From: Letharia columbiana
Taxonomy: Eukaryota > Ascomycota > Lecanoromycetes > Lecanorales > Parmeliaceae
NCBI RefSeq assembly: GCF_014066305.1
Contig: NW_023501077.1
Coordinates: forward strand, 1-64,000
DNA length: 64,000 nt
Reading direction: 5' to 3'
The position numbers and the translations under genes were made by a program. Numbering within the stretch: position 1 is the stretch's first letter; every line of letters starts with the position of its first letter. Under the pieces are notes generated by a model, which made no database searches, was not told the DNA's origin, and saw nothing but the letters and a program-made list of their open reading frames with translations. Positions 4,393 through 64,000 of this stretch are shown here, in pieces.

Positions 4393-4492
4393 CTCAGCTG
4401 TTTCTCGAATGGTCAGAAGTCCGATCAGGGTAATTGCTACGTTGAATTTTCGGCAACCAGTAATAGACAGGTTTAGCAATGTGATTTAAAAT

Positions 4493-5692: not shown

Positions 5693-5875
5693 TATTAAAA
5701 TTCGAATTACGTAACTCTTAGCGTCTTAGTAATTATATAACTATATTACGTAATATATCTTAGCGCGCTTATATTAAGTTACTCTTTTCTTTTATAGAAC
5801 TCTATAATTAATATAATTAAGTATTTTATTTTTAATTTTAATAAATTATAAATTTAAATTATATTTAATAACTAT
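5693..5875 (+). repeat. Copia-type LTR relic 1
   Basis: Aligns to the much better preserved LTR at 57871 (start TGTTGGAATTCGG). Here the start is TATTAAAATTCGAATTACG, i.e. the same with G-to-A and C-to-T changes, followed by the shared segments tcttagcgtctta, gttactcttttctttta, agaactctataattaa and aataaattataaattt. Confidence 0.75.
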
Positions 5876-5987
5876 CTTACGAAAGCTACTATATATGAGA
5901 ATTTACTATTAATTAAAAATAGATAAACTATTAACGATAATAATACGATTTATATAATAAGAACTATATATCGAATATAGTTAAATT

Positions 5988-6170
5988 TATTAAAATTCGA
6001 ATTATATAATTTTTAGCGTCTTAATAATTATATAACTACGTTATATAATATATCTTAACGCGTTTATATTAAGTTACTCTTTTCTTTTATAAAACTCTAT
6101 AATTAATATAATTAAATATTTTATCTTTATATTTTAATAGATTATAAATTTAAATTATATTTAATAATTA
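5988..6170 (+). repeat. Copia-type LTR relic 2
   Basis: Same family and direction as 5693-5875, starting 295 bp later. Two LTRs this close imply either a tandem insertion or an element that lost nearly all of its interior. The sequence after it is homologous to that after the LTR at 57871, so this LTR is the 5' LTR of the following relic. Confidence 0.7.
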
Positions 6171-20218: not shown

Positions 20219-20505
20219 AATTCATATTTTTTAAAACTTAAAATTTTTTTTTTTTTTTAAAAAATTTTAAAAAATAAAAATATAATTAAAATTTTAAAAA
20301 TTTTTATTATTAATTTTTTTATTAAATTTATTTATTATTTTATAAAATAAAAAAAAAAACCTATTTTTTATTTTTTTTTAATAAATTTAAATTTTTTTAT
20401 TTTTTTTTTTTTTTTTATTTTTTTTATTTTTTTTTTTTTTATATTAAAAAAAAAAAAAAAAAAATTATTTTTTTATTTATTTTTTTATTTTAAAAAAAAA
20501 TAAAA

Positions 20506-20543
<38 letters not shown>

Positions 20544-20592
20544 TATAATAAAAAAAATAAAAAAAAAAAAAAAAAAACTAAAAAAAAAACTT
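20219..20592. repeat. A/T homopolymer block 1
   Basis: About 370 bp of long A and T runs with almost no G or C, at the presumed 5' end of element 1. May be a true low-complexity tract or consensus error in a hard-to-assemble repeat. Confidence 0.8.
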
Positions 20593-25900: not shown

Positions 25901-28900
25901 CTAACTCTCGAGCTATAGATTTTTTAAAATAATATTTATTAAAAAAGTAAATTTAGCGATTTTAATATTTTAAAAATATTAAAAAGTTAATTATCTTTTC
26001 TTCGTTAATAATATTATTTTATACTTTATATAAATTAAATATTATTATATTTTAATTTAGAATATTCTATAGAACTATTTAATATTTTAAAAATTAAATT
26101 TAAATATTTTTTTTTTATAGAGAGCTTTTATAATATAAAAGCGAGGTTTTAAATTTAATCTCTTAAGTTTTAAAACTAATTATTTTTATAATAATAAGAT
26201 ATCTATATAATTAAAAGAAGATTTAAAAAGATTTATTAATAAATATTAGAATAAGCTAATTAAAATATTTAAGCTATTTAGAAAAATTAATTATATAATA
26301 TCTAAAGCTAGATAATAATTTAAAAAATTAATAAATACGTTTATATAATATAACGAAGTATTTATAATAATAGTATTATTTTATAAATAATAGAATTAAG
26401 TTTTATAAAAAGAAATAATTAATATTAAATAGATAGATAATCTCTTTATTTTTTTTTAATAATAATATTAATAAGAATTTAGCTAATTAAGTAATAATAA
26501 TCTTTAAAAAAAAACTATTATTTAATTAGATAATAAATTTAAATATTTATTATAATATAACTAATTATCTTTAAAATATTTTTATATTTATCTATTTTTC
26601 TTAAGACTCTTCTTTATTTCTTTATTTTCTTATAAAGATAATATATTATTAATTCATCTTTTTAAATCTATAGCTATTATTTATTTTCTAATATTTATTT
26701 ATTTTATAATTCTCGATCTACTAGAATCTTAATTTATTAAATTAATTTACTTTAAGTATTTTAATATAGCTCGCGATATTATATAATATATATCTCTTCT
26801 AATTAATAAATATATAGCGAGATAATAATATATAAGCGTTAAATCTCTAATATTCTAATTTTAGATTTATTATTTTTTAAAATAATTATATTAAAAAATA
26901 ATAGAAAATAATAATAGAAGAAGAGATTTAGATAGAGTAAAAGAGTTTAAATAAAATTATATTTTTAAAATATTTTAAAAAAGATAATATTAATAAATAT
27001 TTTAAAACGCTAAAAAGCGTTATAAATAGCGAAATAAATATAAATATATAAAATTATATTTTAATTTATTAATTAACTTTAAACGTTTATTAATTTTAAA
27101 AGAATATTATTATTATAATAAATAATCTCTATTAAATTATTAAAAATACTATATTAAATAATAACTTAAATACTATATTAAATTAAGAAAACGAATCTAA
27201 TAATAGAGAAGATTTTTTATTATTTATATTAAATTTATCTTTAACTCTCGCTTCTCTAGAAATATTAGTATAAGATTTTAAGAATAATTTTAAGAATAAC
27301 TTTAACGAGTTAGCACTTAAGGGTAATTCGCGTAAATAGATTATAAATATATTATCGCTATTAAAGCGCTCTTCTATAATTAATCTTTCTAAAGAGATTT
27401 TTTATAAAAAAGTCTTTATAAAGTTAAAAATCTTTATAATAATTTTCGAATTATAATATTAAATAACTAAACTAAGTAGATAAAGCTATTAGAGCTTATT
27501 AAAAATATTTAATCTACTAAAAAACTTAAAGACTTTAAGAAATCTATTAAAGTCTATTTTTATTATTAAGAAATATATTAAAGCGTAGTTACTATTTATT
27601 AAACTACGATATTAAGAGATAGCTATAATACTTTAAAAACTATTTACTTAAAGTTCTAAAAGCGTTTCTTATATTAACTAAGAAGATATATATTTCTTTA
27701 ATTCTTTATATCTCTTTAAGATGATTCTATTATCTACTAATTTTTATATAAAAATATATATTAAAATAATTTATTTTATAGATAAATTAATAGAACTCTA
27801 TTATTCTATAATATAGACGATATTAATAAAAATATATTCTAGAGATTATATTAAAAATTATAATAACTCTTTTATAATTCTCTTATCTAACTTAATTTAT
27901 TATTATTATAAAAAATTAAACTACTATTATTTAGCTATAGTAAATATTAAATTCTATTTTAATAGAGTTCTTAATGTTAGAAAAGATTTTATTAAGGCGA
28001 TAATCTCTCTAGAAATAGTAAAACTTATTATTAATTCTCTTTACTTCTTATCTCGCTTTAAATTAAATTAATTAGATTATTTAATTTCTTTATAATCTAT
28101 AGCTATAAAACTATTTCTCTTAAAAAACGAGTTTTATTATATTATTTAAAATTAAATTAATTCTTTAAAAATAGAAATATACTATAATTATCGCTATAAG
28201 AATTTAAATATAAATTTAAATAAAAAGCTAGCTATCTATAAGACTCGCTTTATTATATAAAATATCTATAATATTTAAATTAAGTTAATAAACGCTTTAT
28301 AATTTTATTCTTCTTATCGCGATAAATTAAAACTTCTAATTTATAATTAATATTATCTTCTTAACTTCTCTAAATCTCCTTATATTAATATATCTCTTCT
28401 TATTTTTATAAATATATTCGAATTATATTAAAATATATATAGATTAATTCTTAGAATATATATTATTATTACGAGATTAAATTAATATAAAAGAAAGAGA
28501 AAAATTAATATCTTATTACTTACTCTAAAGTCTTATAAAAGCGAGTTTATAAATATTATTAAAGTTATTAAGTCTAAAATAGCGAAATTAAATAAAAAAA
28601 TCTTAATAGAGATTAACGAAATAGAATATATAATATATATTTATATAATAGTATTTATTAAGAATATAAAGTAATAGATATAAAATATAGGATTTAACTC
28701 TTCGCTAGTAAATCGAGATTATACGAAATATCTAATTTTTAAAAAGTATAAATCGAATTTAATATTTAATATTAGACTTAATAAACATTTTTACTAAAGA
28801 ATTTTATATAAGAGATTAAAAGCGAAGTCGTTATCTAACTCTATTAACTACATCTGCAAATCTGAAAAGTTCCTGCTAAATTTCAAATTGCTGATCTTGC

Positions 28901-31900
28901 GAATAGGGCTGAAATTAAGAATTCCGCCAGTTTAGCAACTATCTTAAAAATCAGCCAAAATTCCGCCGGTTTAATAACTATTCTAATCTTTTTCGTTAGT
29001 CCTACCAGTTTAGCAGCAATATACACGAAAAAAGAAAAGTTCTAATAATCGACGTTGCGATAGCAAGGTTCTACGGTAACGAGTATTAACGCCAACTCAA
29101 ATTTAACTACGAAATTAGATAATTTAATAAAATTAGTCGCGTAGGTAATGCTCTGATATAGCGTATATTAATAATAATATATATTAATGCCATTATAATA
29201 TATATATAGAATAGTACTTAGAGTGTATTAGAGTGCATTACGTAAAATTTTTGAAGTTATTAAATTTTTTTGAAGTTGCTAAACTGGTAGAACTGGCGGA
29301 AAGGATTTGGATATAGATAAAGTCTGCTGAATAGGCTAAATCGTGCTGATCGTGCGGACCCGGCGGAAATCGTGCGGAAATTAATTTTTAGATTTGCAGA
29401 TATACTTAAAAATACTAAAAATAAGTTTAAAGTAAACTCCTCTTATTAAAATCTTATCTTCTTTAAATTTTATTCGAAATAATTTAATTAATATAATATA
29501 CTCGAAGTTCGCTAATATAGTAAAATAAGTTTAATAAGTTTTAATTAAGATTATTTTTATAGTAGAAAACGCCGAAGCCTATACGATTAAATTTTACTAC
29601 TTTTTTTTTTATTAAATTAAAATAAATTATAATCTTCTACTTATTATTTATAAAACTACTAAATATAGAAATATATAAAAATCTCTATTATTATATTATT
29701 ACTTTAAGAATATAATTATATTTAAAATAGATAATATCGCTCTTTTTAAAGATTTTAAAAATATTATTTCTTTAAATTTAGAATATAACGCTATAGATTT
29801 TATTATATAATACTACGCTTATATAATAAAGAGTAATATTATTATTCTAATTTATAATATAATTAGCGAAAATAGAGATAATATAGCTATTCTATTACGT
29901 TAATTAAAAAAGTTATTTTAGAGACTATTTTAATATACCGCTCTCGCTATATTATCGAAGTTTAAATATAAAAAAAAGCTTATTTTATCTAGAGATATAA
30001 TATTAATAAAATCTTAATAAGAATTTAATAACGAGTTAGATATTCTTAATATATTTAAGAATTATAAGATATAAAAGATAGGGCGCTTAAAGTATAAGAA
30101 TTTTATAGAGTCTTTTACTATAGAAGAGATATTATTAAAAATAATAATAGCGTTTTAAACTTTTATAAATAGATTAAATATTTATATTAAATTATATTTT
30201 ATTAAAGTAATATAAGAGTACGCAACTTTAAATAATCTAATAATCTTCTCTAAAGAAGATAAATACTAATAAAAGATCGTTTTAATAATTACGATTATAT
30301 TTCGCTAATTTAAATATCTAAAGACTTTAAGATATCTATTTTATATATAAATTATCGCGATATTATTAAGATATTATTATTTAAAAAAAGCGTTTATTAG
30401 ACGCTTCGTTTTATATTTATCGACTTAATATAATATTTTAAATTAAGATTAATAATAGAGCTATAGAGAATTTATATTTAATACCCAATACTATTTAAAT
30501 AATTATTATTATTCTCTAAAAGAAAATAAAAGAATATAAAGAGCGAGTTAAGATTAATTATTCTAGGGGATAAATTATATAAAAAGCTTATTATTTTAAA
30601 CTATCTTAATAAGAAGTTTATTAGAAAGTTAAACTAGCCGCTTTAGTCTATTGATCTTAAATATAATAATTTATTTATTTTAATATTATAATAGATATAT
30701 TAGATTAACTATAATAAGTTTAATATAATCTTTTCTCATAGTGCTAGATTATAATAATATTAAAAGTTAAGCTTTATAAATAGATATATTCTACTTCTTC
30801 TTTATTTTATTATAAATTTATTATATTAATATATTAAATATATTAAAGACGAGTTTAGAATAAGATTAGAATATTAATTACTAAGATATAGAAAATCTAA
30901 ATATTAAATTATATTTAAAGTTAATAACTTTATTACTATTAGAGTAGAAGAGTTTACTTACTTAGATAAAATATTTTTATATTAACTTTTATGTAAATAA
31001 ATTAGAATATTTACGCGTATTATTATAATAAAAAACTTTTATATCTTTTAAATTAATTTTATTCTAAACGCTTTCTATCTTAAATTATCTATAATTATAA
31101 ATATTATAAAACTTTCTAATATTAAAAGTAAGAAGTATTATATTATATATATTAAACGTATAAAGTAACTTAATAAAACTCGATAATTAATCTATAAAGA
31201 AATTATCTTACTTCTAAATTAAGATTATAATATTTAATTTATATAGAATAAAAATAATTTATTATTTTAAAGATTTTTATCTTAATAGTGAAGAATATAT
31301 TTATCTAAGTTATAAAATAATAAAACTTATAAATGTTTATTAAATAAGCGCTCTCTATAAAAAATTCCGCTATATTTTCTACACTCTAAAATTATTTATC
31401 TCGATATTAGATTATTAAATATAGAATATAATACGCGAAATATAATATTTAAATATAGATATTAAGGCTTAAAGTGCGAGTCGTTAAAACCCTAATTTTA
31501 AAACTACTAGAAAACTCTTAAAATATAAACTTAACAAAAATTCGAGAAATACTTAATATTTAACTTAAAAGAATTTCGAGAAGATAAATATAATTTATTT
31601 ATTAATAATATCACCCTAAGCTTTATTATATATCTATATATTTATATTCTAATTTAAATAATCTTATAAAATAGTCTAAAAAGTAGAAAATTAATTTTAG
31701 CGTAAAGTTCGTAGTATTAATAGATATATTTAAACGATAAACGTCTTTTTAAAGCGTCTAGTAATAGAGTTCTTTTTTAATTAAGATATTTAATTTAAAG
31801 TTATATAAATATCTATACTATTAAAGAATATTAAAAAATAAAATCTATAAATAGTTAGAGTTATTTAATTAAAAATTAGAAAATAATATAAATACTTATC

Positions 31901-31950: not shown

Positions 31951-32164
31951 GCGAGTATAATTTATATATATAGAAAAATATTAAATATAATTATAAAGCT
32001 CTTCTTTAATAGCGAGGTATATAAAAAAAAAAATTAATAAATTAATATTTTTTAATAGGAAAATTATATAAATAAATAATATCTTCGAGTATTTTAAGAT
32101 AGATAATAATATATATTTTCTTATTAGTATAATATAGAAATTTTTTTATAAAAATATTTAAAAT

Positions 32165-32352
32165 TTTTATTTTTAATTTATTTTTTTTTTTTTTTAATTT
32201 TTTTTTTTTTTTTAAAAAATTTTTTTTTAAAAAAAAAAAAAAAAAAAAATTTTTTTAAAAATTTTTTTTAAAAAAAAAAAAAAAATTTTTTTTATAAAAT
32301 TTTTTTAAAAAAAAAAAAAAAATTTTTTTTATTTAAAATAAAAAAATATTTT
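32165..32352. repeat. A/T homopolymer block 2
   Basis: Alternating long runs of T and A, nearly no G or C, immediately before the 5' LTR remnant of element 2. Confidence 0.8.
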
Positions 32353-35300
32353 TTTTATAAGTAGTAGATTTCTAGATAGAAATAATCAAGCTTATTATAT
32401 ACTACGATTATAGATTCTTATTATTATTATAATATAATAGTAATATTATTTCTTAATATTAATTAACTATTAAGAGATTTTAGAAGTTCCTTTATCAGGC
32501 CAGTTAAAGAAAGCTTATTCTTTAAGAAAACTCATTCTTTAAGAAAGCTTATTCTTGAAGAAAGCTTATTCTTTAAATCTTATCTTAAGCTTTCCGCTAC
32601 GTAAATTCTTTAAGTATATTATTACTATCTAAAATCACTTTTAATAGCGAATTCTCTATATCTACCGTAGTTTTAATTAAGGATCTATAAGAGATAAAAA
32701 CCTCCCTCTTAGAAATCTTAATTCCTCGTAAGATTTCTTAATCTTTCTCTACTTTCTTTTAAAAATTATTAATATCGTTAATTAATAGCTAAGCTGGCTT
32801 TCTTAAGTTATTTAGTATTTAATCTAATCGCTTATAATATCGTTATTTTTATATTTTAACTATAAGAGTTTCTTAAAAGTAATTATACGTTTATAAATCT
32901 ATTTAATAAGAAGAACTATTAATTTATTAAGAATATCGTCGAAAGTAATTTTCATTTATTCTTTATAACTCGAGAAATCTTAATAAGAAACAATTATTTA
33001 TATATTAGATTTAATTTAATTAAAGTATTATTCTAGCCTCTTAATTAGATTATTAATAAACTATATTTTTATACGATATTTAGAATATTCGATAAAGAAG
33101 TAAAATTACTACGAAGACTCGAGGATCTTCTATTTATAAGAGTTACCTCTAGAAAACTCGCCGAGTTTCTTATCTTCGAGAATTATTATATTTTCTTTAA
33201 TAAGCTTAGTTTTATCTTTAAAAATCGCTACGCTTTCTTTAATAAGCTTAAGAATTATAATAAGAGTAATCTTCGTTAACGAAGTAATCTACTCTTATCT
33301 AATTAGTCTATTAAATAGAATAGATCTTAATAATTTATAAATATAAGTCGTTATCGCGATAGTTGCTTTCGCGGCGGTAATCTAATATATATATAATAAT
33401 TTATTATAATAAAGAATATTAGAATCGTTAAGCTCGCTAGATATTATTAATACTTTAGAAAATAATAAAGATTTCTTATAATCGAGATAAAATTTAAGCG
33501 ATATCGATTTTTTTAATTTAATATATAAAGATAAGTCGATAGCGTCTAGAGCTTCGTCGATAAAGTATATATTAAAGAAGATATACTTTTATAATATTTA
33601 TTTTTTTATTAAGTATATTTATAACGTAGCTAATATTAAAGATAATAATCTTATATATATAAACCTTTAAACTTATTTAAAAGACCCTATTTTAAAATAA
33701 TAATTTAATAAATTTATTAATAATAATAAGCGTTTTATTAAGCTCAGCAATAGACTTAATAAGTAAAAATAACTACTTATTAAACGATTTAAGATATTTA
33801 CTAATATAATTATTAACTTAATTTTTAAGAAACGCAATATACTTTATAATATTAATAATTATAAAGAATCTCGAGAATATATTTAACGAATTTTATAAGT
33901 AGTAAAAAATATCAAGTTTATAGATATTAGTAATTAAATCGATATTATTTATAATAATCTCGATTTCGATCTTAGATAAGATATTAGATATTTTAAAAAA
34001 AGTATAAAATTATAGAAATTTCTTATTAAGCTTAATAATTTTAAATATAATTAATAAATATATATAGATAAATATAAAGTAGAAAGAAGTATAGATATTA
34101 AAAATACTTCTAGATTTTAAATAAATTAATAACCTCGATTTATTAATAGTAATAGAGATAATTATAATTAGTTATAACCTCGATAATAATAAGATTCTAG
34201 ATTTAATTAGTAAGTATTTTATAATTATTAATCTTATTAGCTTTACTACTCGTCTTTTTCTTATTATTTTAATAATATAAATACTTATTTAAATTAATAG
34301 TAATAGAATTCTAATTAATATAGCTAGCAATTAAATCTATAATATTAATCTCGCTTATTTAAAACTCGATAACCTCTTTAAATTATCGCTTCGCTAAACG
34401 AATATATTTCGATATTCTTAAATTCTTAATCTTTATTAGAAGAAAGCTTTCTTAAAAAAAAGACCGTAATAATTAAGCTTTCTCGAGTTAAGATTTTTAA
34501 AAATCTTAATAATAGTAATACTTAAAGATATCCGCCTATTAAGCTTTTATTAATAAGAATAAGAAATCTTATTAGTATAAAGAAAATAACACTTAAAAAG
34601 AAAATATTAAGATCGAGTTATTATACTTTACGGGTAAAGATTAATAAGAAAATAAAATATATTATAGTATTATTAACTACTCGCTAAGTTCCCATAATAA
34701 ATAATTCGCGAGTTTTATAGAATTTAAAACTTATTATCGTCTTTACGAAGATACTTTCTTATTTAAAATAAAGCTTTATAAGTATCTTTATATCGATTAT
34801 TTCGAGAAAGCTTAAGGTTACTTAGATTAATAATAATAAAATACTAATCTCGAAAGCGTTATCGAAAGATTTTTTAAAGAAAATCTTAAGAATAATTAAA
34901 TTCGACTTCTCGAGTAAGAATCTTAGTTCGAGATTTATATTTTATAATTAAAACTACGCTTATATAGAACTTCGTCTAATATCGAAAAAAGAAATTAATA
35001 ATATATATCTAAATATAGATTATAGCGTAATCTTAAATAATAGATTATAGCTTAAAAGCTTATTATTTAAAATTAGGATTATTAAAATAGCTTTATCTTT
35101 AAGAGTTCGCGAAGTAAATATTAATAAGTATAAAATTAATAAATATATAACTACGAAGCTTTATTTTCTAAAACTAGATTTCTAAAATAAAAAAGCTCTT
35201 ATCTATCTTCGAAGAGAAGTTTATATTATTAATAATCTTTATACTAGAATATTAATTAATAATAATATTATTAATTTTAAAGATATCGTTATTAATATTA

Positions 35301-40005: not shown

Positions 40006-42430
<2,425 letters not shown>

Positions 42431-42810
42431 ATAATATAGATAAGAGAAAGACGATATAACTTAAAATAAAAAAGAGATTTATATTTAATAAAATATTAGA
42501 ATAAGATAATAATATAAAATTAGCGATAATAGAGAAGAAAGTAGAATAATATAATTAATATAAGTATTATAGATATTAATTTTAAGATATTAGATTTTTT
42601 TCTATTTTAAAATATATAATCGCGCTATATTCTACGCTATTTTAATTATATTTTACTAATATACTATATATTAATTCTAATAACTATTCTAGATTAGATA
42701 AGATAATTTTGAATGATATATTTATATCGAAAAACTTCTAAGAAATATACTTTTAATATTATTTCTACTTCTTCGCTAATATTAAGCTATACGATATTTT
42801 ATTATCTAAT
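42431..42810. other. AT-rich spacer between copies D and B
   Basis: About 380 bp separating two inverted satellite-carrying repeats. No recognised repeat and no frame. Confidence 0.6.
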
Positions 42811-44786
42811 TTAAATCTTTATTAGTATATATAAAAGAATAAGATAGAGCTGAATTAGAAAATCTTAAATTTATATATATAGCCAATTATTAATTTAGAG
42901 TTATTACGCTCTTTAATTAAACCGACTAAATTAGCCTATTAGCTCTTTCGAGCTCTCTTATTAAAAATTTATATATAGAAGTTTTATACTCTAAAATAAT
43001 AAGCTTTCTACGAATACTATTACTTTATAATTTCGTAAATTATAGAGCTTAGTTTACGCTTTCTAACGATGTAAAAATTATAAAGTTTAATTTACTATTA
43101 ATAAATTAAATAGATATTTAAATATAGTAGTTATAGTAGTTATATTAGACGCGTTCGAGATCGAATAATAATCCTTTTATCTATTTGTGTAATTATTCTT
43201 TATTTATTATTCTACTAATTTACTAATATAAATACGTTTATTCTCGATATATTTCTAAATACTTTAAGTATATATACCCCTTCTATTTACCTTTTAGAGC
43301 CCCTATTAACGCCTTTAAACTATTTCTTAATAAATTTACTACTATTAATAATCGAGGCCGTAAGCGAGCTTAATAGATATCTACTATTACTTATAAACGC
43401 GTTAATACTCTATAAGAGAAGAAGTAAGAGAAGGAATTATAATAGGTAAATACGGAGAATACTATAAAGAAATTAAGCGATAATAAGGCTACTATCGTTA
43501 AGAATACGACTTAGCTCTCTAAGATCTTATATTATATTAGTTATTCACTTAGTTAATTACTTAATTAGCTACTTAATCTAATACTTTATAAAAGAAAAAG
43601 TAAAAGAAAAACTATAATAGATAAATACGAAGAATATTACGAAGAAACTAAGCGATAATAAGATTATTATCGTTAAGAATACGGCTTAACTCTTTAAGAT
43701 CTTATATTATATTAATTATTTACTTAATTAATTACTTAGCTAGCTATTTAATCTAATACTCTATAAAAGAAGAAGTAAGAGAAGGAATTATAATAGATAA
43801 ATGCGGAGAATACTACGGAGAAATTAAGCGGTAATAAAACTATTATTATTAAGAATATAGCTTAGCTCTCTAAGATCTTATATTAATTTACTTAGCTAAA
43901 ATAAGAGAAGTTACGATAGTAAATAAATACGAAGAATATTATAGAGAATACTATAAAGATAATTATTAGTAGTAGTAATATAATAGATCTACTCTTTATA
44001 ATCTTATATTAATTCACTTAGCTAGAATAAGAGAAGTTATAATAATAAGCGAATGCGGAGAATATTACGAAGAAACTAAGCGGTAATAAAGCTCTTAATA
44101 TTAAAAACACGGCTTAGCTCTCTAAGATCCCACGTTATATACTCTTTATAGTTCTATATTAAATTATTACTTAGTAAGCGAAGAATATTATTATAACTTA
44201 GTCTATTATCTCTACTATAACTTAACTTATTATCTCTATTATATTTATATAATACATTAATAATATTATAAGAGAAGAATCTACTGCGATAATCATAGCT
44301 AATTAGACCTCTATAAAAGGAATATCGAACGATATATATTTAAACGAATTGAAATCGTTCGATATCTACAGCTATTTTATTATTCGAAAGATTTCACTAC
44401 GATAGAAGATATTATAGGATTCACACCACTAATTAACACGTTATCTCCATTTCTTTTCGATATTTCGATACTTCTTATTATAAGAACATAGTCTTTCTCT
44501 ATTTTTTATAGGCAATTATTACGAATTAATCCTCTATACTTAATATACCTTCCTAATTAGGCCTTAGCGCGCCTCTCTCCGTACATATATATCTATATAT
44601 TACATAGATTAAATTAATTTTATAGTGGTAAAAGTAGATTAAAAACGCATAGCAAGCGATTAGAGTTCGATTTGACTTAGGGCTAGGGCTAAAATTCGAT
44701 TTAACTTAGAAAAATCCAACTTCATTTAACTTAGAAAAATGAAAAATCCAACTTCATGAATTTAATTTATGGGCCTTTACTTATAT
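42811..44786 (+). repeat. Satellite-carrying repeat, copy B
   Basis: Starts ttagtatatataaaagaata and runs in the direction of copy A: left domain, shortened array (about 43390-44260) and right domain (gaattgaaatcgttcgatat at 44349, attcacaccactaattaaca, aggccttagcgcgcctctct). It ends aattcatgaagttggattt-type sequence in inverse (aaatccaacttcatgaattt...gggcctttact). It is the most heavily mutated in the left domain. It lacks the 915-bp insertion found in copy C. Confidence 0.8.
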
Positions 44787-48400: not shown

Positions 48401-51400
48401 TCTATGTATAATTATTATATATAAATTTTAAAAATTTATTTTTTAAATAGAATTATAAGAATCTAATTATCTTTATAATTTATTATTCTAAATTTATTAT
48501 TAAAAGAGATATTAGATATATAGAATATAATTATAATAAATTAATAATAAATAGAATAGCTATAAAAATAGTTAGATATTATAAATTTTTATAATTATAA
48601 AATAAAATATAAATATCTTTAAATTCTAAAGACTAGAGTATAAAACTACGCTTTCTCTATTTTCTTTAATATTATAATAATATTAGATATAGATTAATAA
48701 TATTATAATAGTATTTATTTATAATATATATTTTTAATATTCTAATTTATAATCTAGCTATTTATAAGCTTTTTTTAATATTCTTTAAAATATCTTTAAA
48801 ATCTTCTATCTCGTCTTATCTTTCTTAATCTTCTTTATTATCTTAAGTCTTCTCGATATTCTATATAGCTTTTTTAATAATTTTAATAATACTACTTATT
48901 TAAGCTTCGCTTCTATAATTATAATTCTTTATTTTAAAAATTTATTACTATTATATATATAAGTATAAGTTTTTAAAGAGTATAAACTCGGCTTATAATA
49001 TTAAGTAAGAATCTATAACTCTAATTATATCGTTTTATTTTAAGATTTAAATTCGATATTATTAAGCGATAATAATTAAATAATTCTAAGTGAAAGAATA
49101 AAAGAAAAAAATAGAAATATAATAATAATATATTTAATAGATTTAATAAGTTTATAAAGTCTAATAAGTCTATAAAGTCTATAAAGTCTATAAAGATTAT
49201 ATTATAAGATAAGATATTTATATTATTTAAGACTATTATTAATAATAACTTTAATATAAGTTTTCTATTATTAATATATATACTTTTACTAATTTTTAAG
49301 AATACTATCTTTATTATTAATAATTTATTTAAATATATAAAGAATATAAAAGTAAAAGATTCTATTTACGAAGCTCTAATTAATAATCTTAACTCTTTAT
49401 TTTTAGAGATCTCTATTAATACGCTATCTAATCTCCTCTTATCTTCTAAATCTTCTTAGTAATAATTTTTAAATAATTTTAATAAGCTAGCTTAGAATAA
49501 GCTTATTATATCTTCTAATAAAAATATATTATTATCTTTATATCGTTTTTTAATAATAAATTTATTAAAAGAAGTATTATATAAGCGAGCTAGTTAAAAG
49601 ATAAAGACGTTTTTAATAATATTAGACTTATAATATAAAATATCTAATATTACTTAATAAAACTATTAGAGTTTATTAAAGATATTTAATCTTCTCGAAA
49701 ATTTATAAATATTTAAAGATCTTTCTTATTTTATTATAATTTTTAAGAAATATATTAATATATAATTACTATTAATATAATTATAATATTAAAAAATAAA
49801 TATAATATAAAAGTAATTCTTGATATAAAGTAAGTAAAAAAAAGTTTAAATTATAAAGAATATAATATATTTCTTTAATTTCATTAAGCTATTTAAGACT
49901 ATACTTTTATTAATTAAATTTTATATTAAGATTTATATCGAAATAATATATTTTATTAATTAACTTTTTAAGTTTTATTATTTTTTAGTATAAACTTTTT
50001 CTATTAAATCTTACTCGAGAGAATATATATTCTATTTTAATTAAACTTCGATCTTCTCCTTTAATATTATTTACTATTATTATAAAAAAAAAAATTATTT
50101 TTATTAAAATAAGCGTAAATATTATATAACTTATATCGCTATAATTAATAGAGATAAAATAATTATTAAAAAAATAATTAATTAAGTTAGAATTCTCGTA
50201 AATTCGCTCTATATTACGAGCGCTTTTAAATTAAAAGAATTAGATTTTTTAATATTAATATACTTAACAGCTAAAGAATTATTTCTTTTAAAATAAAAAT
50301 CTCTTTATTTAAATTAAGAATAAGTTTATATTAAAAAAGTCGATATATATTTTAATTATTATTATAAAAAATTAGATATTAAATTAAATAAAAATATATT
50401 AGCGTATTAATTAAGATTTATAATATATTAAATCTTTAAATTTAATAATAAAAGTATTTATTTATTATAGCTCTTTATATTTATTTATAAAGTATTAAAA
50501 TTAAATATATATAGATATATATATCTAGCTAGCTTTATTATATCTTTATATCTTTTAATTCCTCTTTTTATCTTTATTAATATATTTAATTTATATTAAA
50601 ATATATATTAATCTCTAATAAGGATTTATATTATAATCGTTAATTTAAATTAGCGAGAGAGAAAATAAAGAGTTAATATATTACTTTTAATACTTAATTT
50701 ATATATTAATAATTTCGAAGATATAATTAAAATTTTAGAGTTTAAATTAATAGCTTTAAATTATAATATTAAAATTAATCTTAATAGTATAAATATATTT
50801 ATATATATTTATATTATAGTTTTTATAGAAGATATAAAATAGTAATAAAAGAATTCTAACTTTATATCTTCGATTATTAATAGAAAATACTTAAAATATC
50901 TAGTTATAAAGAAGTAAAAAGTAGATTTAACTTTTAATATTATACTTAATACTCGCTATTATTATTAAATCTTATATAAATAAATTAAAGGCAACGCATT
51001 TATAAATAGTATTAAATTCTTTTAAAGTATAGAGATAAGATCTAAATAAACTTCGCTAATTATTATTATATTATCTCTAAATATTATATATAATTAATCT
51101 AAAGATATAATATATTTAAAATATATTAAGATTATTAAATAAGCGTAATATATATTATTCGCTATTATACTTACTAACGTTAATACTAATATCTACTATA
51201 TCGAGCTTTAATACTTTCTTTTTCTATCTAATTAAAATTAATTATAATTATCTAAATATTATATCGCTAATTATTAAATATAAAAATATAATAAACTCTT
51301 AATTATTACGTCTCTACTTCTATAAATCTAATTATAATTTAAATAAATTAATTCTATATATTTAAAAATTATAGAAGTAATAATATCTTCGACGTTAAAT

Positions 51401-54200
51401 TTTAATAGTATTAATTTAATTATTATATATTATATTATTATAATTAAAAGTAATATTATAATTCTAATATAAAATATAAATTAAATAAATCGATAGAATA
51501 TAATATCGCTATTATTATAATTAAGAAAGATATTTTAGAGACTCTATTAATACGCTATTCTTATTTACTTTAAAAACTTTAAGCGTAATAATTATCTTAT
51601 TTTCTTTAAATAAATAATATTAATTAATTTTTTAAATAATAATTTTAAAGTAGAAAGTATATTTAAAAATAGCGAGTTATAATATTTAAGTTATTTAGAA
51701 TATAAATATTTAATAGAGATTTTTAAGATTAAGAATAATATTATAAAATAAGTAATAATATTTTATAACATTATAATATATTTAAATATATATATTACTC
51801 TATATTACGAGTATATAATTATAAAGTACGCTATTTTTAATAATTATATTACTCTTAATAATAAGAATAAATATAGATATATATATAGAATTCTTCTTAT
51901 TTATCGCCTCTACGCTAATCTAATAAAAAAGATTCTTTAAAAAAATAATAATTTAAATTAATTTTTAAGATATAGAAAAGATTTTACTTAATAAAGAGAG
52001 TTTATATTAAACTCTACGCTTTATTCTTATTAGTTTATATATATCTATTAAGCCTAAATTAATTATAAAAATAATAAAAATATATTTAAAATACTTTATT
52101 TTTCTAATTAATTTATTATTCTATTCTAAGCTAAATACTAAAGAGAATAACTTATATTAATTTTAGATAATAATTACTAAAGATATAGCTTATAAAAGGC
52201 CGCTAGCGCTAAGATATCTAGATTGTAAATATATTATAAAGAATTTAAAATAGCCTTTATAGTCTAATTAACTTACTCTTAATAATTTATTCTTAATACT
52301 ATTATAATATATTTACGAGATAGATTATAAAGAGCTTAATATTATTTTATCTAGACGTATTAAATTATAATAATATTAAAAGCTTAATTTTATAAATTAA
52401 TAAGATATCTAACTTTCCTCTCTTTAATAGCTTTTATATTTTTATTATTTATTTATATATATAGATTTAATAATAGCTATAAAAATCGCTATTTAGAATA
52501 AATAGTTATTAATAAATTATAATAGAATATCTAAATATCGAATTATATTTAATATCGAAGATTTTATTATTATTTAAAACTCCGACTTAGTTTAAATTAA
52601 TAATATTTTCTTATATAAACTTTTTAAGAAATATATTAAACTATTTACTAGAGTAATTATAATATAAAACTTTAGAGAACTAAAGCTTAACTCTATTCTT
52701 AAAATTTTTTATTAAAAATTATTAAAAATAATATAGATTATTAGACTTTTAGATATTAATATAAGAAAGTATTATATTCTATATATAAGTTATAAAGAGC
52801 GTAATAATAGAATTAAAGGAGGCTTAAAGAGAGATAATTAAACCCTTTTATTAAATTATAATTACGATATTTAATTTATATAAGCTAATAAATCTACTTT
52901 TAGATTAATATACGGGTTAAATACTTTATTCTTCGATATTTTAATTAGCTATTAACGTAAATAATGTTTTATTTTAAATAAAGTATCTTAAAGATAGAAG
53001 TAATAAGGAGATAAGAGTTACTAAGTGCTATTATTAGATATATTATAAATTAAATAATATAGATAAATAAGCCCTTTATTAAATTTCTATATTTTTATCT
53101 TATATTTATACTTTATCTACTATAAACTAGCTAATCTAGCGAAGAAATAAACTTAAAATATTAAACTTACGGGGATATACGGAGAGCGTAATACGACTTT
53201 CTAAGATATTTTTTTTTCTAAAAAGCTAGCTATTATAGTATTAACGTCTTTATATAATTAATAAACTAGACTTATTATCTCTCTAGATATATATATATAT
53301 AGATATCTTTAGAATATAGCAATTATCTCTATAGAGTTATAATATTAAATTATCGACTTTTTATTTTATCTATAAAGTTTATTTATTAGTCTTTATTCTA
53401 CTACTAATTTTATCTCTAATAATTATCTAAAGAATAGTAATAAAGAGCTTATTTAAGATAGTTAGAGCGTAGGAATTATTAATTTATATAGTTTATTTTA
53501 AAGAGAGCTTCTCTAAAATAGAATATTAATATTTTAATAGAGATATTTTTAATCTAATTATTTTTAGATATAAAGATATTATCTAAAAACCTATAGAGAG
53601 TATAGTATATTATTAGATAGAGTTAAGAATAAATAAACTATCTAATTAAAAGGTAGTAGATTATAGAATATTATAATTATATAACGATTTTAATATAAAT
53701 TAAAATAGAAGATATTAGAGGAATAAATTATCTCTTTTTTAGATTTCCCTATATTATAATAGTAGTAATTAGATATAATTAATTTATAATCTAGCTATAT
53801 AAATAAATATAATAAATAATTATAAGATATTCTTAACGTATAGTAAGTTATTCTTAAGTTATCCTTAAGATATCTCTTTTATTTCCACTTTTTTATACTA
53901 TCTTCGTATTTATTAGCAGCGCTCTTTTATATAATAATATTTTTATATTTTATTAATGGCTATCTAGTATCCTTACGCTTTTAGCTTTTATATTATTTAT
54001 TATTATATCTAAATTAATATTTCTCTTAAATTAGCGATAATTAGAAATACTAGCTATTATAATCTATATCTATAGCGATAAATATTAATACGTTAATAGA
54101 CTTATATATAAATATCTTTTATTCTAAATTATATAATAGCGATAAATTAATTATAATAGGGATATAGAAGATATAAGTAACTTTTATAATTCTATAAATT
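45422..54200 (+). mobile_element. Large unclassified element, copy E4
   Basis: Colinear partner of E3 (see anchors there). The left estimate is the AAGGTTAGCCGA motif at 45422-45433, where composition is normal (agcacacctgtcgggaatct); the right border is not defined. The plus strand holds long stop-poor runs rich in Tyr/Ile/Asn between about 49500 and 52450. No enzyme motif was recognised. E4 has no MITE at the position corresponding to 28851 in E3, so that insertion post-dates the split of the two copies. Confidence 0.5.
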
Positions 54201-54204
54201 AAAT

Positions 54205-54363
54205 AACTTATAAGCCTAATTTATAGGTACGCTGGAAATACTTATACGATATTAGATAACTTGTGAGCCTAATTTATAGATACGCTGAAAATATTTATAC
54301 AATATTAGGTAACTTATAAGCCGAATTTATAGATATATTAAAAATACTTATACGATATAATAA
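54205..54363. repeat. Three tandem 53-bp repeats
   Basis: Units start at 54205, 54258 and 54311, each 'aactt(a/g)taagcc(t/g)aatttatag...' to 'cttatacgatattag'. They differ by a few transitions. Not related in sequence to the 53-bp unit of the satellite family. Confidence 0.85.
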
Positions 54364-55128
54364 TCTAAATAGCTAATCTCGCATTATAAATAGATTAGCT
54401 TTCTTCTCTTTTCTAGCCACTTAAAAGTAAATATATTTTTTTATATTATTAGCGAGAATTAAGCTAACGAATAAGGCGGAGATATCGAACCTATTTATTC
54501 TCTATATTAGCTTTCTCTCCAGCATATCGCCTATTTAATAATACTATATTCCTATTATATATCCCTTTTCGTCCCTTTATTCTCAGCGCGCCTATATTTA
54601 AAGCTTAAAGAGCCTTTTAATATATAATAAGTTAATATTATAAATAGAAGAGATATACTAATTATAACGCGATTAAATTATAAATAAAATTCTATCTAGC
54701 GAAGATAATATAATATAATTAAAGTACGCAATTTATTTACGCTTCTATTATATATACTTTAGTATCGCTAACTACTTAATCTAGTAAATATAAGAAATAT
54801 ATAAATATTATTAGGTATATATCGCTTTTTAACCCTAGTATATCGCTCTATAAGTATTCTATTAATAAAAGATTGCTAATTAACTTACGATAGTTGAAGA
54901 TTAGATAAATGTTATAAAGCGGATAAAGAAATAGAATAAATGAGATTAGAGGGATACGGAGAGGGTAACTACTTTCACCTATATAATGTATTTTATAAAT
55001 AATAGCAATTATTAATAAAGTATATAAGATATATATATAAATTTACATCAACTAGATCTGGTTCATTATATAAAATAAAAATAACACTTAGTTAAAATAA
55101 TTCGATACCTGCGGAGATAGAACTAAAA
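54364..55128. other. Non-coding, partly GC-balanced DNA
   Basis: Contains two better-preserved patches (54465-54600 and 54885-54985, e.g. ggataaagaaatagaataaa) between AT-rich segments. No frame or RNA gene recognised. Confidence 0.4.
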
Positions 55129-55190
55129 GATCTTTAACAGATCTCCGACAGATCTTCAACAGATCTTCAACAGATCTTTAACAGATTTTC
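55129..55190. repeat. 11-bp tandem repeat, five units
   Basis: Five units of AGATCTtcAAC (variants agatctttaac, agatctccgac, agatcttcaac) followed by a partial unit. Confidence 0.85.
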
Positions 55191-58055: not shown

Positions 58056-59062
58056 TAATTATTTTATAATTTATCTACTATTTATTATAGCTATAACTAC
58101 TTCTAGCGTATTTATTATATTAATATTTATTAAATAGTAGTAGTTATAATCGCGGAGAATCTCTTTTATTAACCTTCGTAATATAAGTATTTCTTATTTT
58201 AAAATAATTATTCTAATTAGATAATATACGTCGAATACGCTTTTAATTAAAAGAGTAGAGATAGCGAGTAAGAGAGGCTATATCGAAATTATTAATATAT
58301 TAATATATTATATTAATAATTTAGTATATAGACTCTCTTATTATCTCTTATATAAGATAATTTAAAGCGAGTTAAAGTATATCGTATTTAATCATATAAT
58401 ATTAAAGCTATTATACGCTATAATAGAATATTATATATTTATACTTTTTCGTTATATAGTCGCTATAATTATTAAAATATTATTAATTTTCTTATATTAA
58501 ATAGAATACGCTAAAAATAAAAGATAATATATTCTTATTCTTATATTTCGCTATATTAAAAGCTAATAATAAGCGATTAAACTCTAATATCTTATTATAT
58601 AATTTCTATAATAAAAGTTAAAATATAATTTAAGATAATAGCGTAACGCTAAAAGAGAAAATAATCTATATCTTATATATTTAATATATTAATATATAAA
58701 GAAGAATTATTTTCTACTATAGTAATCGAAGAGTAATTATCCTCTATATCTATATAAATAAAGCGATCTTATAAAGAAGCTTTAATTAATTTTAATAAGC
58801 GAGCGAAGCGAAATTACGAGTAATCTTATACTCGATTTTAATTAATTTCTTTAATAAAAGAGCTAATTAATAGAAGATATTATATTATAAATACGATAGA
58901 GAGTAATTAAGATAATCGCGATAATAATATAAAAGATAGAATTTAATTAAATTCCTCCTTAAGTATAAAGAGTGACGATTTTTTATAAAGATTTTATATA
59001 CTTATATTATATTTCCCCTTAATATCTATAAATTAAAGCCTATCTCTTTAAAATATTATTAA
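58056..59062 (+). mobile_element. Copia-type internal relic
   Basis: Follows the LTR at 57871 and aligns with 6171 onward, so the pair represents the 5' end of the same element type. Stops are dense. It is cut by satellite-carrying copy C. Confidence 0.55.
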
Positions 59063-59185
59063 TTACAAGTAAAGGCCCATGAATTAAATTCATAGAGTTG
59101 GATTTTTCTAAGTCAAATCGAATTTTAGCCCTAGCCCTAAGTCAAATCGAACTCTGATCGCTTGCTGTGCGTTTTTGACCTACAT

Positions 59186-60100
59186 TTTGATTGATTTGAT
59201 TGATTACATCATACTACCCTGAAGTCTTACCTTGATGGCCGACTATGCGAGACGCGTAACTAATCTATCTAACCGTTTTTGGACTAGCCGAAAGCTGAAA
59301 GGGGGTCCCCTACAAACGCAGAGCCCCTGACTCAAGTGCCGTATCCTTCTTTTTAACCCGTAACCCTCATGTGTGTGTGTGCTTGTAGACTGAATGAAGG
59401 ATTCCACTGAGCCCGGGAGTCCCGTAGAAAACAATATTCAAATCCCAACTCTTTTGTCAATCATTCTGCTCGGCGGGGTTACTCTCTGATGGTTACTGAA
59501 GGTTATTACTCCTCAGTAATCCATTGCTCGGTGGATAAGGCCGAGGTTTAAGATCCGGTATTATCACGTCGGATACGTTTCGATAGAGCGAGGTCGAACG
59601 ATTTGTGCTGTGTATCTTAAGGTACCTCCAGAAGGCATGAAGAAAGGTGGAGATTCTTTCGCGTTGTAGGCTGATTGCTAGTCGATGAAGGGAAAAGAGA
59701 TGTATCTCTTGGGGTAGATGTGGTGTAATGGTGTGGTTTGGATTGGCGAATTAGTGTAAAGTGAAATGTAGTTGTTGCAGTGTAAAGGCGTTGAAGCTGA
59801 AATGACTGAAATGATACGTGGCGTCTGGTGCCGATGTCGAAAGAGCAGAATTGGTATTGTTGTTGCTGATGATAATGATGATGATGTTGCTTTTAGGAGG
59901 GGAAGGTCGGTGTGTGACAGTGATAATTGACTATTAAATCCAGTGAGAGGAGGGAATGCTGCCTCTCGAAAGGACGCGTTGCTTTGCGGTCTTCAGGGGG
60001 TTATTTTGGTCCTGAGGCCTACAGTCGTGTGATCGCTTCATTATTGGTACGGGCCCTATACCAAATAATGAGCTGATCACCGTACTGAAGGCCTCAGGTC
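59186..60100 (-). mobile_element. Retroposon-like insertion inside copy C
   Basis: Absent from copies A and B. It is flanked by a 14-bp direct repeat TTTTTGACCTACAT (59172-59185 and 60101-60114). Read on the minus strand, the 3' end carries a simple tail of ATCA-type units (gtaatcaatcaaatcaatca) next to the duplication, as in LINE/SINE-type retroposons; the 5' end is the large palindrome at 60011-60098. No coding frame longer than about 60 codons. Ordinary base composition. About 30 bp found in copy A next to the insertion point are missing in C, so the insertion may have removed some target DNA. Confidence 0.6.
60011..60098. repeat. 88-bp imperfect palindrome
   Basis: Arms start CCTGAGGCCTaCAGT and end ACTGaAGGCCTCAGG, and meet around gtacGGGCCCtatac; about four fifths of the positions pair. 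It could form a long hairpin in DNA or RNA. Confidence 0.85.
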
Positions 60101-60150
60101 TTTTTGACCTACATACAGGCACATATGTGCGGAGAGAGGCGCGCTAAGGC

Positions 60151-60408
60151 CTAATTAGGAAGGTGTATTAAGTGTGAAGGATTGATCCGTAATAATTGCC
60201 CATAAAAAATAGAGAAAGGCCACGTCCTTATGGCAAGAAGTATCGAAATACCGGAAAGAAATGGAGACAACGTGCCAATTAGTGGTGTGAATCCCACAAT
60301 ATCTCCTGCCGCAGTAAAATCTTTCGAATAATGAAATAGCTGTAGACATCGGACGGTTTCAATTCGTCCAAATATGTATCGTCCGATGTTCCTCCTGTAG
60401 AGGCCCAA
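60151..60408 (-). pseudogene. Possible coding remnant in the right domain of copy C
   Basis: An 85-codon minus-strand frame contains a protein-like stretch with a hydrophobic segment (LIGTLSPFLSGISILLAI) and RIETVRCLQLF. The corresponding region of A and B is also conserved but is broken by transitions. The same 258 bp are open in two frames, so coding is uncertain. No family recognised. Confidence 0.25.
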
Positions 60409-60488
60409 TTGACTGTGATGTGAGTAGATCCTCCTCTTGTGACGTTATTGCAGTGATATACCATATTAATGCAGTGGGGATGACAGGC

Positions 60489-61790
60489 CAAGTTGTAGTG
60501 GTGTTCTCCGCTTGCTGAGTGATGATTTGATGTGGAACCGTGGAGAGCATATGACGTGGGAACTTGGAGAGCTGAGCCGTGTTCTTGACGATGGTGGCCT
60601 TGTTGCCGCTTGGTTTCTCCGCAGTGTTCTCCGCATCTGCCTGTTGTAGTTCCTCCTCTTGCTCCTCAATGTAGTGGGGATGACAGGCCAAGTTGCAGTG
60701 GTGTTCTCCGCTTGCTGAGTGATGATTTGATGTGGAACGGCCAAGTTGCAGTGGTGTTCTCCGCTTGCTGAGTGATGATTTGATGTGGAACGGCCAAGTT
60801 GCAGTGGTGTTCTCCGCTTGCTGAGTGATGATTTGATGTGGAACCGTGGAGAGCATATGACGTGGGAACTTGGAGAGCTGAGCCGTGTTCTTGACGATGG
60901 TGGCCTTGTTGCCGCTTGGTTTCTCCGCAGTGTTCTCCGCATTTGCCTGTTGTAGTTCCTCCTCTTACTCCTCAATATAGTGGGGATGACAGGCCAAGTT
61001 GCAGTGGTATTCTCCGCTTGCTGAGTGATGATTTGATGTGGAACGGCTAAGTTGCAGTGGTGTTCTCCGCTTGCTGAGTGATGATTTGATGTGGAACCGT
61101 AGAGAGTATATGACGTGAGATCTTGGAGAGCTGAGCCGTGTTCTTGACGATGGTGGCCTTATTACCGCTTGGTTTCTCCGCAGTATTCTCCGCATTTGCC
61201 TGTTATAGTTCCTCCTCTTGCGATGTTATCAATGCAGTGGGGATGACAGGTCAAGTTGTAGTGGTGTTCTCCGCTTGCTGAGTGATGATTTGATGTGGAA
61301 TCGTGGAGAGTATATGACGTGGGATCTTGGAGAGCTGAGCCGTGTTCTTGACGATGGTGGCCTTATTGCCGCTTGGTTTCTCCGCAGTGTTCTCCGTAGT
61401 GTTCTCCGCAGTGTTCTCCGCATTTGCCTGTTATAGTTCCTCCTCTTGCTGTTATCAATGCAGTGGGGATGACAGGTCAAGTTGTGGTGGTGTTCTCCGC
61501 TTGCTGAGTGATGATTTGATGTGGAATCGTGGAGAGCATATAACGTGGGATCTTGGAGAGCTGAGCCGTGTTCTTCACGATGGTGGCCTTGTTGCCGCTT
61601 GGTTTCTCCGCAGTATTCTCCGTAGTGTTCTCCGCATTTGCCTGCTGTAGTGACTTCTCTTGCACTGGCTGAGTGGATTGGTGTGAGACCGTGGAGAGTA
61701 GGCCTGTTGTGTCACTGCTGCTGATGACTGTCTCCGCAATGTTCTCCGTAGTGTTCTCCGCATTCGCCTGTTGTAGATCCTCCTCTTGTT
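60489..61790 (-). repeat. Satellite array: ~200-bp units with nested 53-bp and 12-bp repeats
   Basis: Unit starts (caagttg...) lie at 60489, 60689, then 53-bp sub-repeats at 60742 and 60795, then 60995, 61048, 61252 and 61478. Basic period is 200-204 bp; one unit is 226 bp because the 12-bp motif CAGTGTTCTCCG is amplified (61388-61420). Each unit contains gagctgagccgtgttcttga and cttggtttctccgcagtgtt. The same array, more mutated, makes up 7980-9190, 40610-41640 and 43390-44260. Confidence 0.88.
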
Positions 61791-61821
61791 TAACTGAGTG
61801 CGAGGATACCGAGGGTAAATG

Positions 61822-62450
61822 TGTTCATATTGGTGGAATTGGTAGAATTGGTAGAATTGATAGAATGGTGGAAGAAGAATGGTTACACAAATAGGTGGAA
61901 GGATTATTATCCGATCCCGGACGCGTTTGATATAACTACAATATTTAAATGTTAGTTTAACCTATCTACCGCTGGCTTGAGAGGAGTATGTAGGGGAGGA
62001 TGTATCCGTTTGGGCTCTTTTTAAGGGCCTTCCAACGCGTTTATGAGCAGTAGTAGGTAGCTGTTAGGCTCGCTTGCGGCCTCGATTGCCAGTAGTAGCG
62101 GATTCGCCGAGGGGTGGCCTGGGGGCGTCAGTAGGGCCTCTAAGAGGCGGGTAAAAGGGGTGTACGTGCCTGAACCGGACTCTTTTTGAGGGCCTTTCAA
62201 CGCGTTTATGAGCAGTAGTAGGTAGCTGTTGGGCTCGCTTGCGGCCTCGATTGCCAGCAGTAGCGGATTCGCCGAGGGGTGGCCTGGGGGCGTCAGTAAG
62301 GGGCTCTAATTGGGCGAGGGGTACCGAAGACGATTGTGTTCATATTGGTGGAATTGGTAGAATTGGTAGAATTGGTAGAATTGGTAGAATGGTGGAAGAA
62401 TAACAAATAGGTGGAAGGATTATTATCCGATCCCGGACGCGTCTGGTGTG
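61822..62450 (-). repeat. Direct duplication with GGTAGAATT minisatellite
   Basis: Two copies of a segment: gtgttcatattggtggaatt ... aaataggtggaaggattatt ... cgatcccggacgcgt at 61822-61924 and 62336-62441. Two copies of the GC-rich block gcgtttatgagcagtagtag ... ggatt cgccgaggggtggcctgg lie at 62034-62130 and 62202-62298. A 9-bp repeat ATTGGTAGA opens each first segment. Copies A and D retain only one version. Confidence 0.8.
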
Positions 62451-62770
62451 ACTACCATAACTACAATATTTGAATGTCCATTTAATCCACCAATAGTAGG
62501 CCAAACTTCATAATTTTTACAGCGTTAGAAAGCGTAAAGCGAGCTCTACAATTTGAGGAATTATGAAGTAACTATATATATCGCAAGCTGAGTACTTCAA
62601 AGTGTAAAACTTCTACATACAAATTTTTGATGAGGGAGGCGCGGGAGGGCTACCGGGCTGACTCAGCCGGTCTAACCAAAGAGCGTAGCGAACCCGAATT
62701 AATGATTGGCTGCACATACAAATTCAAGGTTTTCAAGCTCAGCCCTATCTTATTCTTTTATATATACTGA

Positions 62771-64000
62771 TATTATAAATTGTAATATAAAATCCCTTTT
62801 TAAATAACGCTTTAAATTTTATTGAATTAATTTTAAAGCTTAATAAAACTTTCTCTATATACTTTAAATAATTATAAATATTCTAAATACGAATAATATC
62901 GATAGCGAGTATACTTTAATTTCTTATATTAATTCTATTATTATATTAAGTTAATTTATCTTTAAATTATTATTAAAATTAATTTTATATAAAAAGCTTT
63001 TTAAGTTTAGAATAAAGCTAGTTTTATTAGCGCTATCTATTCTATTTATTTTATTAAACTCTACTATATCGTAAATCTTATTTTTAAATTTAAGCTTTTA
63101 TTAAAGCTTTCTTCTATTAAATTCTAAAAATTAGATTAATTCTTTATAAATAGTATTATATCTAAATATATTAATATTAAGCTTTTAATTAATTTAAATT
63201 AACTTTATTAAATTTCTATATTTAAAAATATTTTTAATTATTATAAATAAAAGTAAAATATATAAGATTTCTTTATATTGCTAAATCTCTAATATTATAT
63301 TAAAATTAATACTATTTAATTAATCTCTTATTTAGCGATTATCGTATAAAATTATAACTAAATAATAATCTATAAGAGATACTCTTAAAACTATTATTAA
63401 TATAAATATCGTAATATAGATTAGAGCGTATTATAAACTCTATATTATAATAAAGACTTATTATAAGAATAATTTACGCGATCTTATTAAAAGCTATATT
63501 AACGCTATAATTATCTAAAAGAATTTAAAAGAATATAAGTCTCGTAAATTAGATATTCTTAATTCTATTATTTAGAGACTAAAGTCTCTTATTTTTATCG
63601 CTTATAAAAATAAGCTATAAGCCTATATTAACTAATTTATAAATCTATTATAAGAGATTAATAGTTTATCTAAGAAATTTCCCTTTATTATTAATAAGAA
63701 TTAAAAGATTTATTACTTTTATAAGAGTTTAGATAATTAATATACTTAGTATTATAAGATTTATAATTAAAATCACGATCTTTATAATAAAAATAAATCT
63801 TTTAAATTTACGCTAGTTTACGCTAGAATATAATAACTTAATATTATCTCTAATTCTATTATCTTCGCTAAGTTCTTTAATACTTATACGATAACTATCT
63901 ATATCGAAATAGATATTTATATCTTTATTTCTATAACGCCTATATTAATTAAATATTATATTTAAAATAATATTAATTCTAATAATTCTTATATCTAGAT
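62771..64000 (+). mobile_element. Copia-type relic: gag region, runs off the window
   Basis: AT-rich DNA in which the plus strand resembles the gag region at 56360. A degenerate zinc knuckle lies at 63711-63752 with CX2CX4HX4C spacing: TAT at the three Cys positions and AAT at the His position. Frames are broken by stops. It continues beyond the right edge. Confidence 0.6.

Follow-up and report, generated by a model that had tools for sequence, protein, structure and literature searches.

A repeat family that recurs through the genome of the lichen-forming fungus Letharia columbiana is represented by four copies in the 64,000-nucleotide stretch analyzed here (positions 1 to 64,000 of contig NW_023501077.1, assembly GCF_014066305.1; hereafter, the window). 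We conclude with little doubt that this family, including copy C at positions 59066-62770 (minus strand, 3705 bp, a whole element delimited from its termini and flanks), is a non-autonomous Helitron, i.e., a DNA transposon of the rolling-circle type that lacks a RepHel protein of its own. The family is therefore a known kind of mobile element, here in a lichen-forming fungus and very numerous. The analysis established where the element ends, the sequence of its hairpin, its insertion between A and T, a single nested empty site, the existence of copies with these same ends that carry Rep and helicase domains, and a mutation pattern. An initial annotation of the window had described fixed, non-inverted ends and no visible transposase, both of which are as expected of a non-autonomous Helitron.

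Copy C, read on the minus strand, starts with A|TCAG and ends with CTTG|T. On its own strand, the element opens as A|TCAGTATATATAA and closes with the palindrome ATGAATTTAATTCAT followed by GGGCCTTTACTTG|T, with the 19-nt palindrome located 11 nt before the 3′ end. The 5′ terminus (TCAGTATATATAAAAGAATAAG..., 62741-62770, minus strand) is preceded by A, and the 3′ terminus (ATGAATTTAATTCATGGGCCTTTACTTG, 59066-59093, minus strand), whose palindrome ends 11 nt before the end, is followed by T. Across the window and the collected loci, 32 of 33 distinct 5′ ends are preceded by A, and all 39 3′ ends are followed by T; at both ends, these flanking bases lie outside the search patterns. L072 and L073 represent one and the same 3′ end. 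The one remaining 5′ end, at contig C8:846116-846133, lies in a head-to-tail junction (CTTG|TCAG); this junction was found genome-wide once exactly and four more times with one mismatch. Variable ends between genomic copies, which the initial annotation had raised as an argument against a defined unit, were not what this survey of flanks and termini revealed. At 11 nt from its terminus, the family-typical 3′ end folds into a hairpin with a stem of 8 bp and a loop of 3 nt (-6.3 kcal/mol, z -3.90, with 1 of 200 shuffles doing as well), and the hairpin in another version scored z -4.08. As previously proposed, the two ends do not mirror each other as inverted repeats: the longest inverted match between the first 60 nt and the last 200 nt was 7 nt, a length reached in 249 of 500 shuffles.

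On contig C4, a copy of about 2.3 kb (about 27978-30277) is nested in the 5′ end of another copy. The site reads TTAGTATA|TTAGTATATATAA...CTTG|TATAATAGAATAAG, and the rejoined outer end reads TTAGTATATATAATAG, its two halves joining cleanly and with no base duplicated, as the result of a precise A|T insertion. Checking flanks for target duplication, a step already suggested in the initial annotation, yielded none at this nested site nor at copies A, B2, and C of the window. A second nested site, on the downstream side (L076), was unconfirmed, as the corresponding piece (L086) yielded no 5′ end. Self-insertion near 5′ ends looks frequent, based on a copy pair on contig C153 (L083) whose 5′ ends point at one another across about 29 bp, and another on contig C8 (L084) with 5′ ends back to back.

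Genome-wide, Helitron_like_N had 28 matches (26 over the cut-off) and PIF1 had 33, most of them full of stops. On contigs C3 and C44, end patterns and domain matches occur in the order 5′ end, Rep, PIF1, and 3′ end on one strand, spanning ~6.4 kb and bounded by the family ends. The C3 relative lies on the plus strand (5′ end at 217075, Rep at 219099-219575, PIF1 at 221757-222386, 3′ end at 223425-223453) and the C44 relative on the minus strand (5′ end near 389999, Rep at 387487-387963, PIF1 at 384669-385304, 3′ end near 383607), and both bear the marks of repeat-induced point mutation (RIP). A third relative, on the minus strand of contig C8 (841586-846125, equivalent to 2076-6615 of the reverse complement of L084), retains both ends and combines a partial Rep match with a 593-amino-acid open frame containing PIF1; its helicase is of the PIF1/Helitron kind, with relatives at up to 84% identity. 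The 5′ domain (~0.97 kb) and the 3′ domain (~120 bp) of the non-autonomous copies align with transposase-bearing copies, while the tandem core and roughly 250 bp after it gave no alignment with the C8 relative. The initial annotation had also envisaged a known element with an intact transposase elsewhere in the genome: transposase-bearing copies do exist, but none was seen intact. A possibly related, less damaged Helitron, which may be a source of transposase, lies at contig C9:118774-121156. An open 588-amino-acid PIF1 helicase frame there adjoins a Rep match of which just the final portion is present, and the DNA of this locus matches the C8 helicase region at 76%, with no match to the family 3′ end. 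Separately, another Rep-like (Helitron_like_N) open frame was observed at contig C8:881847-882410 (L010, L080), and about 3 kb downstream of it lies a weak match to reverse transcriptase; a diverged piece of the array, in reversed orientation, is close by.

The abundance of the family was evaluated across the 52.24 Mb genome with RIP-tolerant end patterns that permit C-to-T and G-to-A changes. The 5′ pattern had 1,703 matches (≤1 mismatch) and the 3′ pattern 1,723 (≤2 mismatches), two numbers whose closeness is partly luck, as the mismatch limits differed. Reversed control patterns gave 0 in both cases, indicating that these ends are more than chance matches, and an exact-type 3′ pattern with up to 3 mismatches matched at 669 places, with none for its reversed control. 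On contigs C1 and C2 and at the start of C3, a 5′ end lay ≤6 kb upstream on the same strand for 42 of the 60 listed zero-mismatch 3′ ends, vs 12 of 60 in an opposite-strand control; 2 of the 42 were head-to-tail junctions, leaving 40, and the median 5′-3′ spacing over all 42 pairs was 2.37 kb. If most copies were full length, the ~1,700 ends, taken at the 2.37-kb median, would amount to a family on the order of 4 Mb, which is an upper estimate because many copies are truncated.

Within the window, the four related copies that had been proposed were all found, within about 11 bp of their proposed places, with boundaries set from termini by comparison with relatives. Copies A (7365-9580, plus strand) and B2 (42822-44783, plus strand) are RIP-degraded with both ends present (A|TTAG ... 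CTTA|T), and copy B1 (about 40610-42431, minus strand) is RIP-degraded with a 5′ end only. The proposal that all four share fixed ends thus holds for A, B2, and C but not for B1, whose array breaks off at about 40634 and whose expected 3′ part is replaced by a near-pure run of A, 601 bases long (40009-40609). This run stands exactly where B1 loses its 3′ end, and could be either an assembly artefact or a real homopolymer.

Copy C is longer than the other copies because of a retroelement-like insert, and measures ~2.78 kb once this 915-bp insert and one copy of a 14-bp duplication are subtracted. Neither the insert nor the minus-strand orientation of copy C had been noted in the initial annotation. 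From its 5′ end, on the minus strand, it comprises a 5′ domain of ~0.97 kb (61800-62770), much of which aligns with the 5′ part of Rep/helicase-bearing copies, a tandem core (60464-61788), the insert (59186-60100), and a 3′ domain of ~120 bp (59066-59185) common to most family members met, including transposase-bearing ones. Repeat comparison identified a duplicated 125-bp block in the 5′ domain (62012-62136 and 62177-62301, minus strand), which also contains short GGTAGAATT-type repeats. The core consists of ~200-bp units with one to three 53-mers and 12-bp sub-repeats, and the nested repeats described in the initial annotation are real: a 300-nt family is spaced at 204-306, the 53-mer occurs head to tail, and the 12-bp units are of the CACTGCGGAGAA type. 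Unit spacings in the copy C core are 204, 253, and 306, and anchor spacings are 53, 200, 204, and 226 in copy C and range from 53 to 736 in the other copies examined. In the array survey, which covered 150 listed of 197 matches and scored 40 of 462 candidates, the longest array was ~1.5 kb among the matches listed (41 clusters), and a same-orientation end was located ≤2.5 kb from at least 18 of the 41 clusters (from partial, hand-picked end lists, with no control). Consistent with the lack of any visible transposase, reverse transcriptase, or replication protein noted initially, no Pfam family was detected in copy C (4 scanned of 14 overlapping open reading frames (ORFs) ≥60 amino acids), and, with regard to the long non-coding RNA source suggested as an option by the initial annotation, no Rfam family reached the gathering score across 59000-62800. 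The long open frames of L079 were discarded, as they were produced by a run of N.

The 915-bp insert is a 5′-truncated, (TCAA)n-tailed repeat on the minus strand, which sits between two copies of the 14-bp sequence ATGTAGGTCAAAAA (59172-59185 and 60101-60114, minus strand). It is a secondary insert, as four further copies that span this point (L082, the two in L083, and L055) are without it. The same repeat was found at 7 other loci (L002-L008), where it extends further upstream, with a (TCAA)n tail at 5 of the 7. This tail and upstream extension are as expected of a 5′-truncated non-LTR (long terminal repeat) retroelement, and on this structure we label the insert retroelement-like; a Pfam search of 4 ORFs beside the repeat (L003, L005) found nothing.

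The four window copies also differ in their mutational state. Copies A, B1, and B2 displayed a GC content of 0.25-0.31, TpA/ApT of 1.30-1.40, and (CpA+TpG)/(ApC+GpT) of 0.27-0.60, vs 0.47, 0.81, and 1.20, respectively, for copy C. On the same three measures, the gene-bearing first 5 kb of the window resembles copy C (0.46, 0.87, and 1.20), and the AT-rich middle of the window gave 0.17, 1.19, and 0.15. Copies A, B1, and B2 are RIP-degraded, and copy C is not. Among 19 young 5′ ends (19 of 20 rows used, L041 dropped), CpA>TpA changes were observed at 38 of 266 sites vs 2 of 418 for CpG>TpG.

When compared with the features of Helitron1-type elements, the family displayed a 5′ TC (TCAG in copy C and other GC-rich copies, TTAG in RIP-changed copies), a hairpin within the usual 10-12 nt before the 3′ end (8-bp stem, at 11 nt), insertion at A|T sites with no target duplication (flank counts, the nested empty site, and the flanks of A, B2, and C), no terminal inverted repeats, and same-ended partners with Rep and a PIF1-type helicase (RIP-mutated on C3 and C44, and with a partial Rep at C8 841586-846125). 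The asymmetric terminal or subterminal inverted repeats of Helentron/HINE (Helitron2) elements were not found in a search of exact matches, nor were the arrays of many kb that define satellite DNA proper, with a longest span of ~1.5 kb among the same 41 clusters. Several observations nevertheless weigh against this assignment. The 3′ terminus is CTTG or CTTA instead of the textbook CTRR, and we filed the family as a Helitron with a variant end because CTTG is accepted for HELPO2. The hairpin of copy C itself, which carries one change, is weaker (-2.9 kcal/mol, z -1.89, with an equally good score in 10 of 200 shuffles), and the array is absent from the C8 relative, which was read with both ends. 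No intact RepHel of the family was found, and no listed place had full Rep and full PIF1 matches side by side, both stop-free. The light changes in young copies are strand-uneven (TpG>TpA at 13 of 322 sites vs CpA>TpA at 38 of 266), which simple RIP does not predict.

Three other explanations were weighed against the same evidence. The tandem core and the location of copies in AT-rich DNA would suit a subtelomeric or centromeric satellite module held in place by recombination rather than transposition; however, the listed ends are spread over many contigs and interior positions, arrays reach only ~1.5 kb among the matches listed, and insertion is precise at A|T, including into the family's own 5′ end. 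We therefore rejected such a module as very improbable, and of the options offered by the initial annotation, the non-autonomous mobile unit was right while the subtelomeric/centromeric module is unsupported (telomeres and centromeres being unmapped). The possibility that the family is a non-LTR or other retroelement (short or long interspersed nuclear element-like) with an internal satellite draws on the 915-bp piece in copy C, with its 14-bp duplication and (TCAA)n tail. Yet this piece is the secondary insert missing from L082, both L083 copies, and L055, and the element around it is fixed at both ends and has neither a tail nor a target duplication; its A|T sites and its two constant ends refute a retroelement origin, to which we attach next to no probability. 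Similarly, fixed ends and many copies could indicate a derivative of a cut-and-paste DNA transposon, akin to a miniature inverted-repeat transposable element, but the family is without terminal inverted repeats or target duplication, and its large same-ended copies bear Rep and PIF1 helicase domains; this alternative was likewise rejected as extremely unlikely.

As a non-autonomous Helitron, the family would spread through a RepHel supplied from elsewhere, which, from what is known of Helitrons (in the sections consulted of PMC4778049), would nick at the 5′ TC. A strand would then be displaced, with copying continuing up to recognition of the 3′ hairpin and the CTTG terminus, and the copy, probably circular, would be joined between A and T at a new AT-rich site without target duplication. 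The variable tandem core would be carried as cargo, its length shifting by repeat slippage or recombination, and old copies would then be destroyed by RIP-like C-to-T mutation, with copy C being a young copy. Alternatively, the core could be a working part of the element, e.g., a replication element or a series of sites bound by RepHel or by a host factor, which would have aided the spread to ~1,700 ends despite heavy repeat mutation and would keep unmutated copies appearing in AT-rich DNA, although we regard this as a rather unlikely, speculative scenario.

Elsewhere in the window, further poly-T/poly-A blocks were observed at 20392-20589 and 32162-32360, the second consisting of A runs and T runs in alternation that repeat every 37 bp, along with other short tandem repeats in the AT-rich part (49144-49201, 54198-54358, and 55128-55190). 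A protein encoded at 923-2197 (minus strand) had a best match at 98%, and also matched Lecanoromycetidae sp. Uapishka_2 (64%), Puttea exsequens (59%), and Dirinaria sp. (55%), the latter two being Lecanoromycetes by taxonomy, which points to a lichen-forming ascomycete as host.

Overall, these results extend satellite-carrying rolling-circle elements to a fungus, and add a numerous Helitron family to a lichen-forming fungus. Fresh copies beside RIP-destroyed ones provide a natural clock of transposition vs RIP, and self-nested copies represent ready-made empty sites. A limited literature search turned up neither this family nor any satellite-carrying Helitron in a fungus. Already known, each on its own, are the CTTG end combined with A|T targets and a hairpin (HELPO2), the satellite-like core (oyster), and the occurrence of Helitrons in a lichen fungus. 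The DINE-1 elements of Drosophila are also said to be very numerous non-autonomous rolling-circle elements, as here, but reportedly belong to the Helentron branch, unlike this family.

Among the systems compared, the HELPO2 family of Pleurotus ostreatus shares the AT insertion site, the 5′ TC (T[C/G] in HELPO2), the 3′ CTTG, the subterminal palindromic hairpin, and the association with Rep and helicase; it differs by its basidiomycete host, and the portions of its description from which this likeness is drawn mention no satellite core or RIP (PMC4289320). Helraiser/Helibat1 from bats similarly displays a 5′ TC, a 19-bp palindrome 11 nt from the end, an A|T target with a preference for AT-rich DNA, and precise head-to-tail junctions as with circles, whereas it ends in CTAG, is autonomous, was reconstructed and tested, and has no tandem core in the sections consulted (PMC4778049). 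A parallel to the internal organization is Cg_HINE of Crassostrea gigas, a dispersed, non-autonomous rolling-circle element with a central satellite-like array between defined flanks; it belongs to the Helentron branch and has a microsatellite as well as inverted repeats near its ends, unlike the TC/CTTG ends and the lack of any inverted match above chance observed here (PMC7492417). In filamentous ascomycetes, the FoHeli Helitrons of Fusarium oxysporum also insert into themselves, FoHeli1 and FoHeli2 start with TCAG, and RIP marks are found in F. solani Helitron copies, yet FoHeli elements are described, in the sections consulted, as Helitron2-like, with asymmetric terminal inverted repeats, ATTTT or CTCCTGT ends, and other target sites (PMC5148889). 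Finally, Helitrons are documented in another lichen-forming ascomycete, Umbilicaria pustulata, with 680 copies, 23 of them full length, making up 1.7% of the genome; the excerpted description on which the likeness is based mentions no satellite core, and compares with ~1,700 ends in the present family (PMC8773270).

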